A stretch of DNA of 44,209 bases from a virus. The stretch lies in the IMG/VR virus record IMGVR_UViG_3300031565_000089, positions 1-44,209 of that record; one strand, 5' to 3'. Both the position numbers and the translations under genes were made by a program. Shown here piece after piece: positions 28,200-34,101 of this stretch (within the stretch, counting starts at the first letter, position 1; each line of letters begins with the position of its first letter). Below the pieces are notes generated by a model that was not told where the DNA came from, did not search any database, and saw only the letters and a list, made by a program, of their open reading frames with translations.

Positions 28200-28222
28200 A
28201 ATATGCCTCCTTATTTAATATA

Positions 28223-28294
28223 TTGAACCGGCCGGGCTTGAACCGACGACCTCCGGAAAAATTCCGGTGCGCCTTCCAACTGCGCCACGTTTCA
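28223..28294 (-). ncRNA. tRNA-like element with a five-base anticodon loop
   Basis: Minus strand folds as a tRNA cloverleaf: acceptor TGAAACG/CGGTTCA (6 of 7 pairs), D stem GCGC/GCGC, anticodon-position stem CCGGA/TCCGG, variable AGGTC, T stem GTCGG/CCGGC with T-loop TTCAAGC. The anticodon loop is only ATTTT, two bases short of the normal seven, so no anticodon can be assigned. CCA is not encoded. Either a decayed tRNA or a tRNA mimic. It lies in the 5' leader of the leftward operon, 11 bases before the SD of the first gene. Confidence 0.6.
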
Positions 28295-28301
28295 AAATCT
28301 G

Positions 28302-31903: not shown

Positions 31904-32121
31904 TATTCGATCCCTTCCAGATAATTAATAATTGTTTTCTGGTTCCATGGCGGCGGGGTAGCTTTCCCGGATCCCCACTGTTCCAATGTTTTTAATGGGA
32001 TTTCCGATCTTTTCGAAAGTTCAACCCATGTCCACCCTTTTTTATTTCTGAAATCTTTTACTACTTCAGAAAATGACTTTTCCGGGTCATTCCCCGGAAT
32101 TTCTGTTTTTTCTATTTCCAT
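31903..32121 (-). CDS. Helix-turn-helix transcription regulator
   Basis: 72 residues from the ATG at 32121. An XRE-like HTH ('FRNKKGWTWVELSKRSEIPLKTLEQWGSGKATPP', about 22-55) is the whole protein. It lies at a divergent promoter pair, the usual place of a phage switch regulator. No SD precedes the ATG and the -10 box ends 6 bases upstream, so the message is predicted leaderless, like lambda cI from PRM. Too small to have a separate dimerisation or cleavage domain. Confidence 0.7.
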   Translation of the reverse strand: MEIEKTEIPGNDPEKSFSEVVKDFRNKKGWTWVELSKRSEIPLKTLEQWGSGKATPPPWNQKTIINYLEGIE

Positions 32122-32202: not shown

Positions 32203-32231
32203 TTGCATTGCTACTTAACAAGGGGTATACT
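32203..32231 (+). promoter_or_regulatory. Rightward promoter of the deformylase/tRNA operon
   Basis: TTGCAT (32203-32208), 17 bases, TATACT (32226-32231). AAAGGG precedes -35 and CTTAACAAGGGG precedes -10, as at 28571. The leader (32238-32300) has an inverted repeat (GTTTTTAT...ATAAAAAC) and two copies of TATGTGCAATT. Confidence 0.7.
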
Positions 32232-32300
32232 GAATCAAGTTTTTATGTGCAATTGTTGCATATAAAAACAAGTTATGTGCAATTTTTTGAGGAGGATTTT

Positions 32301-32453
32301 ATGAAAATGGATTTAACAAAGCAACCGAAGTGGGTACAAAAATATATTGAGGGGTTATTGGCAAGATTAGACCTAAGCGTTGAATGTATTGATCTTCTAA
32401 GCAATCAAGTTGCCATCTTAGAGGCTCAAAAAACAGCACATAACAGCGATTAG
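32301..32453 (+). CDS. 50-residue helical protein
   Basis: ATG at 32301 after a strong SD (GAGGAGG). 'KWVQKYIEGLLARLDLSVECIDLLSNQVAILEAQ' is a helix hairpin. First gene of the operon with deformylase and tRNA. Unknown function. Confidence 0.55.
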   Translation: MKMDLTKQPKWVQKYIEGLLARLDLSVECIDLLSNQVAILEAQKTAHNSD

Positions 32454-32476
32454 GCGAAATTATTTTGGAGGTTATT

Positions 32477-32719
32477 ATGATACATATAGATGGGTATTCT
32501 AAAAAAGGGGCAGGCTGTAAATATTATCGCGAAGCTAGTTGTCACCCGGCAAATATAGGAGCTGGACATATCTATGTTTGTTTATTGCATACGCTTCAAT
32601 CTAATAAAAACGGCGATTTTCCACCAGTTGTTAACTGTAATGCTCTATCTGTAAAATGCGAGTCCAAAATAAAAACGCCTAACAAGAATTATATGTCATT
32701 GGGTACAACGACCACATAA
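32477..32719 (+). CDS. 80-residue Cys-rich protein
   Basis: ATG at 32477 after GGAGG. Cys at residues 14, 22, 35, 54 and 61 with 'YREASCHP' suggest a zinc-stabilised fold. No family recognised. Same operon as the deformylase. Confidence 0.5.
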   Translation: MIHIDGYSKKGAGCKYYREASCHPANIGAGHIYVCLLHTLQSNKNGDFPPVVNCNALSVKCESKIKTPNKNYMSLGTTTT

Positions 32720-32756
32720 TTCTGAAACGTTAAATGAAATAATTTTAGATGGTATT

Positions 32757-32888
32757 ATGAAAATATTTTGTTATCATTGCAGATTAAAAAAAGTAATGAC
32801 TGAGCTCTTAAACACCCCGAAAGGGTTTTATTGTCCTGCATGTAATAAGGAAAAAGAAATAATAGGCAAAAAGGCGGTTAAAAAATGA
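32757..32888 (+). CDS. 43-residue zinc-ribbon peptide
   Basis: ATG 32757 to TGA 32888. C-Y-H-C (5-8) and C-P-A-C (26-29) form a rubredoxin/zinc-ribbon knuckle pair spaced by 17 residues. Its stop overlaps the deformylase ATG (ATGA at 32885-32888), so translation of the two is coupled. Confidence 0.6.
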   Translation: MKIFCYHCRLKKVMTELLNTPKGFYCPACNKEKEIIGKKAVKK

Positions 32889-33331
32889 ATTTAGTTTCGA
32901 AACAATTTGTTGAAAATTGTTCTTGCAAGAAAATTCCTATTTCTGAAATATTCAGTTATGAGAATCAAACCATTCCAGAAATGAAAAAAATCATGACTTT
33001 CAATTTAGGTTTAGCCGGTCCGCAGGTCGGAATTAATCGAACCTTTTTCATCTTCCGTTATGGGAATGAAATTCTTTCGGTATATAATCCGGAATGGGAA
33101 CCGGAAACAGAAAAGCGGGCAGCGTCAAAAGAAAGCTGCTTAACATATGGCACCCGGCGAACTACTTGCGTAATGAGATATAAAACAATCATTGCAGAAT
33201 TCACAAATGGCGAAGGGGTCCCGGTTCGAATGAAGCTGCGCGGACGCGACGCGATTGTTTTTCAGCATGAATCAGACCATTTAAAAGGAAAGACAATTTT
33301 CTTCGATCCAGAAAAAGGCGGAAAGAAATGA
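32885..33331 (+). CDS. def: Peptide deformylase
   Basis: 148 residues. Removes the formyl group from the N-terminal Met of new proteins. All three PDF motifs are visible: motif I as G-L-A-G-P-Q (42-47; usual GxGLAAxQ), motif II as E-S-C-L-T (83-87; usual EGCLS) with metal ligand Cys85, and motif III H-E-S-D-H (128-132) giving two metal His and the catalytic Glu. The C-terminal helix of cellular PDFs is missing, as in the short PDFs known from marine phages. Active-site ligands are intact, so it is likely functional. It is in one operon with an initiator-type tRNA. Confidence 0.92.
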   Translation: MNLVSKQFVENCSCKKIPISEIFSYENQTIPEMKKIMTFNLGLAGPQVGINRTFFIFRYGNEILSVYNPEWEPETEKRAASKESCLTYGTRRTTCVMRYKTIIAEFTNGEGVPVRMKLRGRDAIVFQHESDHLKGKTIFFDPEKGGKK

Positions 33332-33621
33332 AACCAACAAACTATTTTAGAGTAATGGATAAAAATTTATCAGGGTATAAACTGGCCGGAAATGATATAA
33401 ATCACTTAAAACAATATTGTTACGGGGATGACGTTATCGTTTCACTTGAAGCCGTAATTATTGGTTTTAAAATAAGATTTTTAATCATGCCTTTTGAAAA
33501 AATAATAAAAAAACACTATGGAATAAATATGATAAATATTTTATGGCTTCATATAGGCTACGATTTTGAAAAACATGACAAAACAGATAAAATCGTTTGG
33601 CGGAAAAATGAAAAAGATTGA
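33328..33621 (+). CDS. Unknown protein following deformylase
   Basis: 97 residues, coupled to the deformylase by ATGA overlap. Mixed alpha/beta with a hydrophobic centre ('VSLEAVIIGFKIRFLIMPFEKII') and aromatic, His-rich second half. No family recognised; place in the operon suggests a related early role. Confidence 0.5.
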   Translation: MKPTNYFRVMDKNLSGYKLAGNDINHLKQYCYGDDVIVSLEAVIIGFKIRFLIMPFEKIIKKHYGINMINILWLHIGYDFEKHDKTDKIVWRKNEKD

Positions 33622-33937
33622 TTTCAAATTCATAGATAGATTATCTAAAGCAGCTGCGGCAGGATCCGCGGCCGGGCGAAGTTTAAGAAAATGCGTTGAA
33701 CAGTCCTTGAAGCATAGAAAAACATATCAAATAAAAGCGGTTTTTAAACTCCGGAGAATGCCGAAACAATATTTAAATGAACTTTCAAGATATTATGATT
33801 CTTTGGCGTTTTTGTCATATTGCGGAATAAGCCCGACCGAAGAAGTAATAAAAGAAATTAAAGAAGTTTCAGAATCAACCCAGATGAATTTTAATCAGGC
33901 TTGTCATTATTATGTTAATAAAAAATCGATTGAATAA
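33608..33937 (+). CDS. Basic helical protein before the tRNA gene
   Basis: 109 residues from the ATG at 33608 (an earlier in-frame start at 33566 lacks an SD). Rich in Ala, Arg, Lys and Ser helices ('AAAAGSAAGRSLRKCVEQSLKHRK') and strongly basic, so nucleic-acid binding is plausible. It ends 25 bases before the tRNA. Unknown family. Confidence 0.5.
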   Translation: MKKIDFKFIDRLSKAAAAGSAAGRSLRKCVEQSLKHRKTYQIKAVFKLRRMPKQYLNELSRYYDSLAFLSYCGISPTEEVIKEIKEVSESTQMNFNQACHYYVNKKSIE

Positions 33938-33962
33938 TATCGATTCAGAACTATATTTAATA

Positions 33963-34035
33963 TGCGCATTGGAGCAGTTGGCAGCTCGTTGGGCTCATAT
34001 CCCGAAGGTCATCGGTTCAAGTCCGATATGCGCAA
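33963..34035 (+). tRNA. Initiator-type tRNA-Met (CAU)
   Basis: Complete cloverleaf: acceptor TGCGCAT/ATGCGCA (7 of 7), D stem GAGC/GCTC, anticodon stem TTGGG/CCCGA with loop CTCATAT (anticodon CAT at 34-36), variable AGGTC, T stem ATCGG/CCGAT with loop TTCAAGT. It has two bacterial initiator hallmarks: three consecutive G:C pairs at the bottom of the anticodon stem (29-31 with 39-41) and A11:U24 in the D stem. The body (8-63) differs from E. coli tRNA-fMet at only a handful of positions. The 1:72 position is a weak U:A pair, not the usual C·A mismatch. CCA is not encoded. Last element of the deformylase operon. Confidence 0.92.
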
Positions 34036-34072
34036 TCCGAAATTTCGTATTCTCGGACCTTAACTTAATTTT

Positions 34073-34101
34073 CCCCCGGGCCCTGACTTCCCGGGGGTTT
34101 T
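34073..34101 (+). terminator. Terminator after the tRNA
   Basis: CCCCCGGG (34073-34080) pairs with CCCGGGGG (34090-34097), 9-base loop, then TTTTC. It ends the deformylase/tRNA operon 5 bases before the convergent SSB gene end. Confidence 0.8.

Follow-up and report, generated by a model that had tools for sequence, protein, structure and literature searches.

An initiator-type tRNA encoded near a peptide deformylase gene in a tailed phage belongs to a widespread class of solitary viral initiator tRNAs

We analyzed a virus record of 44,209 bases (IMG/VR record IMGVR_UViG_3300031565_000089), which as a whole is referred to here as the window. It encodes an initiator-type tRNA-Met(CAU) located 0.63 kb from a peptide deformylase (PDF) gene, on the same strand and in the same compact row. 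Solitary initiator tRNAs are widespread in phages, and this one is a member of that class, which keeps the minor formylation determinants but differs from bacterial initiators at the 1:72 pair and, in a minority, at position 38. Across viral contigs, PDF genes and initiator tRNAs are not associated.

Results

Layout and control signals of the gene row

The window comes from a tailed phage and encodes a terminase, a portal protein, a tail tape-measure protein and further tailed-phage genes. The row is located on the plus strand and is flanked at both ends by minus-strand genes. It consists of ORFs of 50, 80 and 43 aa, the PDF gene, ORFs of 97 and 109 aa, the tRNA(CAU), and a GC hairpin with a T tail (Table 1). 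The row as described in the initial annotation is real, and its spacing is as stated there, with a gap of 37 nt, overlaps of 4, 4 and 14 nt, and 25 nt before the tRNA. Searches with the terminase and with ORF 33608 found no close relatives of the phage; because the terminase retrieved none, the row could not be followed in related phages. No integrase was recognised among the window ORFs scanned, and PADLOC assigned none of the operon proteins to a defence family.

Table 1. Features of the gene row and its upstream region (positions in the window)
Feature	Position	Strand	Evidence
Small HTH protein, divergently encoded; candidate regulator of the row	31906..32121	-	phrog_3 repressor, E 1.2e-4
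Weak sigma70-like promoter, putative (TTGCAT-17-TATACT)	32203..32231	+	read from the sequence
Near-perfect dyad TTTTTATGTGCAA-TTG-TTGCATATAAAAA, candidate operator or 5' leader hairpin	32240..32268		fold z -3.4
ORF, 50 aa, no family	32301..32453	+	Pfam and PHROG profile searches
ORF, 80 aa, no family	32477..32719	+	Pfam and PHROG profile searches
ORF, 43 aa, two CxxC pairs, family below significance	32757..32888	+	best Pfam E 0.025
Peptide deformylase (148 aa) with intact motifs I-III	32885..33331	+	PF01327, E 8.2e-23
ORF, 97 aa, homologue not found	33328..33621	+	AlphaFold pLDDT 49
ORF, 109 aa, helical, homologue not found	33608..33937	+	AlphaFold pLDDT 68
Initiator-type tRNA-Met(CAU)	33963..34035	+	ARAGORN; Rfam RF00005
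Intrinsic terminator, 8-bp GC stem then TTTT	34073..34101	+	fold

The promoter proposed previously for this row is present as a sequence, but its -35 element fits the consensus at only 3 of 6 positions, and the promoter did not reach the cut-off of the scan, which overall performed near its shuffle background (32 promoters found versus 25 +/- 4.4 expected). Just downstream of the proposed start we noted a 29-nt dyad that had not been listed before. Its 13-bp arms form a near-perfect inverted repeat, another half-site, TATGTGCAA, lies close to it, and it is situated between the divergent HTH gene on one side and the PDF row on the other. From its sequence the dyad is a candidate operator. The HTH protein matched HTH_3 with an E-value of 0.0014, below the cut-off. 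Together, the dyad and the divergent HTH gene suggest that transcription of the row may be regulated. At the other end, folding confirmed the GC stem and T tail of the annotated terminator (-17 kcal/mol, z -1.8).

The deformylase and the small ORFs

The presence of a PDF with a full set of metal ligands was borne out by motifs and alignment. In addition to PF01327, the protein matched phrog_2890 (E 3.8e-20) and PDB relatives (E 1.6e-14), and the alignment showed all three catalytic motifs (GLAGPQVG, ESCLT and QHESDH), with C85, H128 and H132 as metal ligands and E129 as the catalytic residue. Its nearest relative, at 48% identity, is the PDF of locus L132, which is flanked by large genes whose sequences suggest a terminase and a portal protein and has no tRNA within 20 kb. 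No row of PDF and tRNA was present in the three known phage-PDF regions that were read.

The initial annotation had proposed that the products of ORFs 32757, 33328 and 33608 might share in a common function, and had raised the question whether homologues of 33328 and 33608 travel with the PDF-tRNA pair. Homologue searches found no relatives of either of these two ORFs, so nothing shows that they do. The predicted structure of 33608 gave no PDB match at E<=0.001, and the AlphaFold models of both proteins are too weak for conclusions.

The tRNA is assigned to the initiator class

The tRNA scored 61.4 bits (E 5e-11) against the Rfam model. Every stem is fully paired, and the informative positions are U1:A72, G2:C71, C3:G70, G4:C69, A11:U24, G29-31:C39-41 and A73. 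The anticodon loop reads CUCAUAU, which places a U at position 38, and CCA is not encoded. The tRNA had previously been described as initiator-like, with no mention of U1:A72, U38 or the missing CCA. This description was strengthened by comparison with a survey of bacterial genomes, in which A11:U24 was found in 4430 initiators and in 0 elongator Met or kIle genes (PMC5143459). In the same survey, U1:A72 occurred in 66 of 4438 initiators and in 3 of 5179 elongators; 98.6% of the initiators had a mismatch at 1:72, and the remaining 1.4% had U1:A72 as the sole paired state (PMC5143459). The window tRNA has A11:U24 and the three G-C pairs 29-31:39-41 of initiators, and at 1:72 it agrees with them by way of the minority U1:A72 state. 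Because of these survey statistics we class it, on sequence grounds, as an initiator with the minority state at 1:72. The same A11:U24 and U1:A72 statistics rule out a reading as elongator Met or Ile2 tRNA, the class assignment that the initial annotation had named as one that would refute its proposal. With regard to formylation, the C1-A72 mismatch is the major identity element, and A73, G2-C71, C3-G70 and G4-C69 are minor ones (PMC9976931). All four minor elements are present in the window tRNA, but the unpaired C1-A72 is replaced by a weak U1:A72 pair.

A second tRNA-like element is located at 28222-28295 on the minus strand of the window (ARAGORN Lys(TTT); 43.7 bits for the Rfam tRNA model in a local search). 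Its anticodon stem CCGGA/UCCGG apparently closes a 5-nt loop, AUUUU, and its acceptor stem contains an A-G mismatch. It may be a pseudogene, or else a tRNA whose anticodon loop has been shortened.

Solitary initiator tRNAs in viral contigs

A pattern search for initiator-type tRNAs in viral contigs, which may include host flanks, yielded at least 120 loci from the first part of the scan, which is not a designed random sample. Variants that depart from the tRNA patterns at positions 32-36 or in the fixed portion of the D-arm were missed. Among the viral loci fetched, the tRNA was the sole tRNA in 112 of 155 initiator loci compared to 16 of 106 tRNA-Asn loci, the loci being fragments that average 9.0 kb and 8.5 kb, respectively. 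According to a family scan, the adjoining genes are a mixture of phage genes, including those for terminase, head, portal and methyltransferase proteins; none of them is a constant partner, and integrase families match few of the neighbours. Matches to the initiator tRNA were also observed on plasmid records of Clostridioides difficile, Lactococcus and Cetobacterium (H85-H104), with no annotated feature beneath the match.

ARAGORN framing alters the 1:72 assignment of a few tRNAs, so the count was restricted to the well-framed ones, 75 unique viral initiators from the first sample. G2:C71 was found in 71 of these, C3:G70 in 68 and A73 in 69. At the first pair, C1xA72 was present in only 13 and U1:A72 in as many; for U1:A72, this corresponds to an odds ratio of about 14 in viral initiators relative to the bacterial survey.

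A pattern for the U38 subtype matched 46 viral contigs, which carried 36 unique tRNAs; 37 of the contigs were new relative to the sample of at least 120 loci. Within the sample, U38 was present in 8 of the 87 loci that fit AGCTCGTYGGGCTCATNNCCC (about 9%). The AGCTCGTYGGGCTCATNNCCC pattern with U38 occurred in 31 viral contigs in all, whereas only 6 loci were found in 84,980 species genomes. Three of these six (L212, L215 and L217) are of the prophage type: by sequence reading, portal-like genes lie next to both L215 and L217, accompanied by phage lysis genes at L215 and by terminase genes at L217, and the tRNA of L212 is identical to that of L215. The other initiator copies found in these three genomes have A38. 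Likewise, among the matches listed for 150 Pseudomonadota genomes, all have A38 except the L215-type prophage copy. U38 was not significantly related to loss of C1xA72 (1/27 versus 11/63, p 0.10). Tandem initiator-like tRNAs, some with U38 and a neighbour with A38, were observed in an Ignavibacteria MAG and a Bacteroidetes MAG (L213 and L214).

PDF genes and initiator tRNAs do not travel together

The initial annotation regarded the row as a translation-initiation cassette and proposed a search for co-occurrence of PDF genes and CAU tRNAs in other phages. We searched PF01327 across whole viral records and used as a control records picked by a tRNA-Asn pattern. The family was present in 0/50, 2/50 and 0/37 initiator-tRNA records (2/137 in total) and in 1/50 control records, which amounts to no enrichment (p = 1). 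The two positive initiator-tRNA records are very large, at 204 kb and 619 kb, and no CAU tRNA is present in the fetched stretches that surround their PDF genes. In a reverse scan of 87 PDF-bearing viral loci, of which a few overlap, an A11:U24 CAU tRNA was located within 10 kb of the PDF gene only in L162-L164, at about 3.4 kb. These three loci represent one near-identical lineage. Their CAU tRNA is unusual: its anticodon stem contains no more than two G-C pairs, and its first pair appears to be G1:C72. Thus, recurrent proximity of the two genes in other phages was looked for and not found; other phages hold them apart, so that the pairing does not pass the second check set out in the initial annotation. 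Given this background-level co-occurrence and the absence of a tRNA from the L132 locus, the pairing is not a conserved module. The phage setting and the gene row of the cassette proposal are therefore real, while the functional pairing is unsupported and is rejected on the co-occurrence counts.

Discussion

The row probably represents a set of phage accessory genes that includes two independent translation-related genes, the tRNA serving as an initiator in infection and the PDF acting separately. The tRNA would be transcribed with the row and processed, and CCA would be added by a host enzyme. It could then be charged by the host MetRS, formylated, and used as an initiator during infection, so that it tops up or replaces the host tRNA-fMet. 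The PDF, for its part, may help to deformylate the burst of phage proteins. We infer use as initiators because the formylation and MetRS elements have been retained; U1:A72 counts against a formylated initiator, as it pairs the bases whose mismatch is the major determinant.

Three other explanations have to be weighed against this one. Lone tRNAs are common in prophages, and viral copies vary at 1:72 and 37/38, so the tRNA might be a passenger, namely a host initiator gene captured as an att-site or transduction remnant and now drifting, in which changes at 1:72 and 38 reflect relaxed constraint. We regard this as unlikely in view of the intact acceptor determinants 2:71, 3:70 and A73 across viral copies, the fully paired stems of the window tRNA, the small number of integrase-family matches beside viral initiator tRNAs, and the lack of a recognised integrase among the scanned ORFs of the window. 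A dedicated cassette, in which the phage would boost its supply of fMet-tRNA and link it to a deformylase of its own, aided by the small ORFs, would fit the closeness on one strand of two genes that serve the same cycle, and the L162-L164 lineage, despite its two-GC anticodon stem, offers a second case of proximity. It is nevertheless improbable, as PDF genes are no commoner in initiator-tRNA contigs than in tRNA-Asn contigs, the closest PDF relative lacks a nearby tRNA, and the small ORFs are without homologues. Since the deformylase pairing does not recur, it matters little.

Finally, the tRNA might act outside initiation, for example by serving as a decoy substrate, by marking the row for RNA processing or 3'-end formation, or by regulating translation. 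Its position as the final element ahead of the terminator would suit such a role, and elongator use is conceivable with a U1:A72 pair, yet none of these roles would need the joint retention of A11:U24, three G-C pairs, G2:C71, C3:G70 and A73, and we consider them very improbable.

Returning to the use of the tRNA as an initiator, its position 38 deserves separate consideration. The site at which VapC toxins cleave tRNA-fMet is the A38-C39 junction (PMC4105405), and U38 of the window tRNA falls there. Because of this cut site, a supply of nuclease-resistant initiator is a speculative reading of U38, which might shield the phage tRNA from nucleases such as VapC that cut the host tRNA-fMet. No test of an A38U substrate was found in the literature consulted. 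PIN-domain proteins are encoded in each of the genomes G101, G104, G105 and G106, but such domains are common and the observation is weak. U38 could also be drift, which is the main rival of nuclease evasion. We therefore propose only tentatively, and with doubt, that many phage lineages carry solitary formylation-competent initiators, remodelled at 1:72 and in some cases at 38, to start translation after VapC-type destruction of the host tRNA-fMet, and that the window tRNA may be one of them. If phages commonly bring an altered initiator tRNA, lone tRNAs would protect initiation rather than codon supply. It would then be possible to test directly what makes some phages carry just a single tRNA, and whether VapC-type toxins act as phage defence.

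Comparison with known systems

The window tRNA shares A11:U24, the GGG/CCC anticodon stem, G2:C71, C3:G70, G4:C69 and A73 with tRNA-fMet of the E. coli type, but differs from bacterial tRNA-fMet in having U1:A72 for C1xA72, U38 for A38, and no encoded CCA. The PDF matches those of Vibrio phage VP16T (orf60T, PDB 5mtc) and Synechococcus phage S-SSM7 and the phage PDF 3uwa. Like these it is short, has the three motifs and lacks a C-terminal extension, but identity is only about 28-36% and theirs are located in other gene neighbourhoods. Met(CAU) tRNAs similar to that of the window are described for the genomes of LoVEphage, cr60_1 and Lak phages, and prophages of the Sinorhizobium phiLM21 type often have a single tRNA, Met or fMet (PMC12429752); the consulted parts of these sources report no PDF and no state of 1:72 or position 38. 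Changes in the anticodon loop have been put forward as a way for phage tRNAs to escape tRNA nucleases (van den Berg et al. 2023, PMC10264068), and U38 of the window tRNA would likewise be a loop change where a nuclease cuts. For Shigella VapC, that study reports that phages generally avoid encoding tRNA-fMet, whereas here initiators with a changed site were found in many phage contigs.
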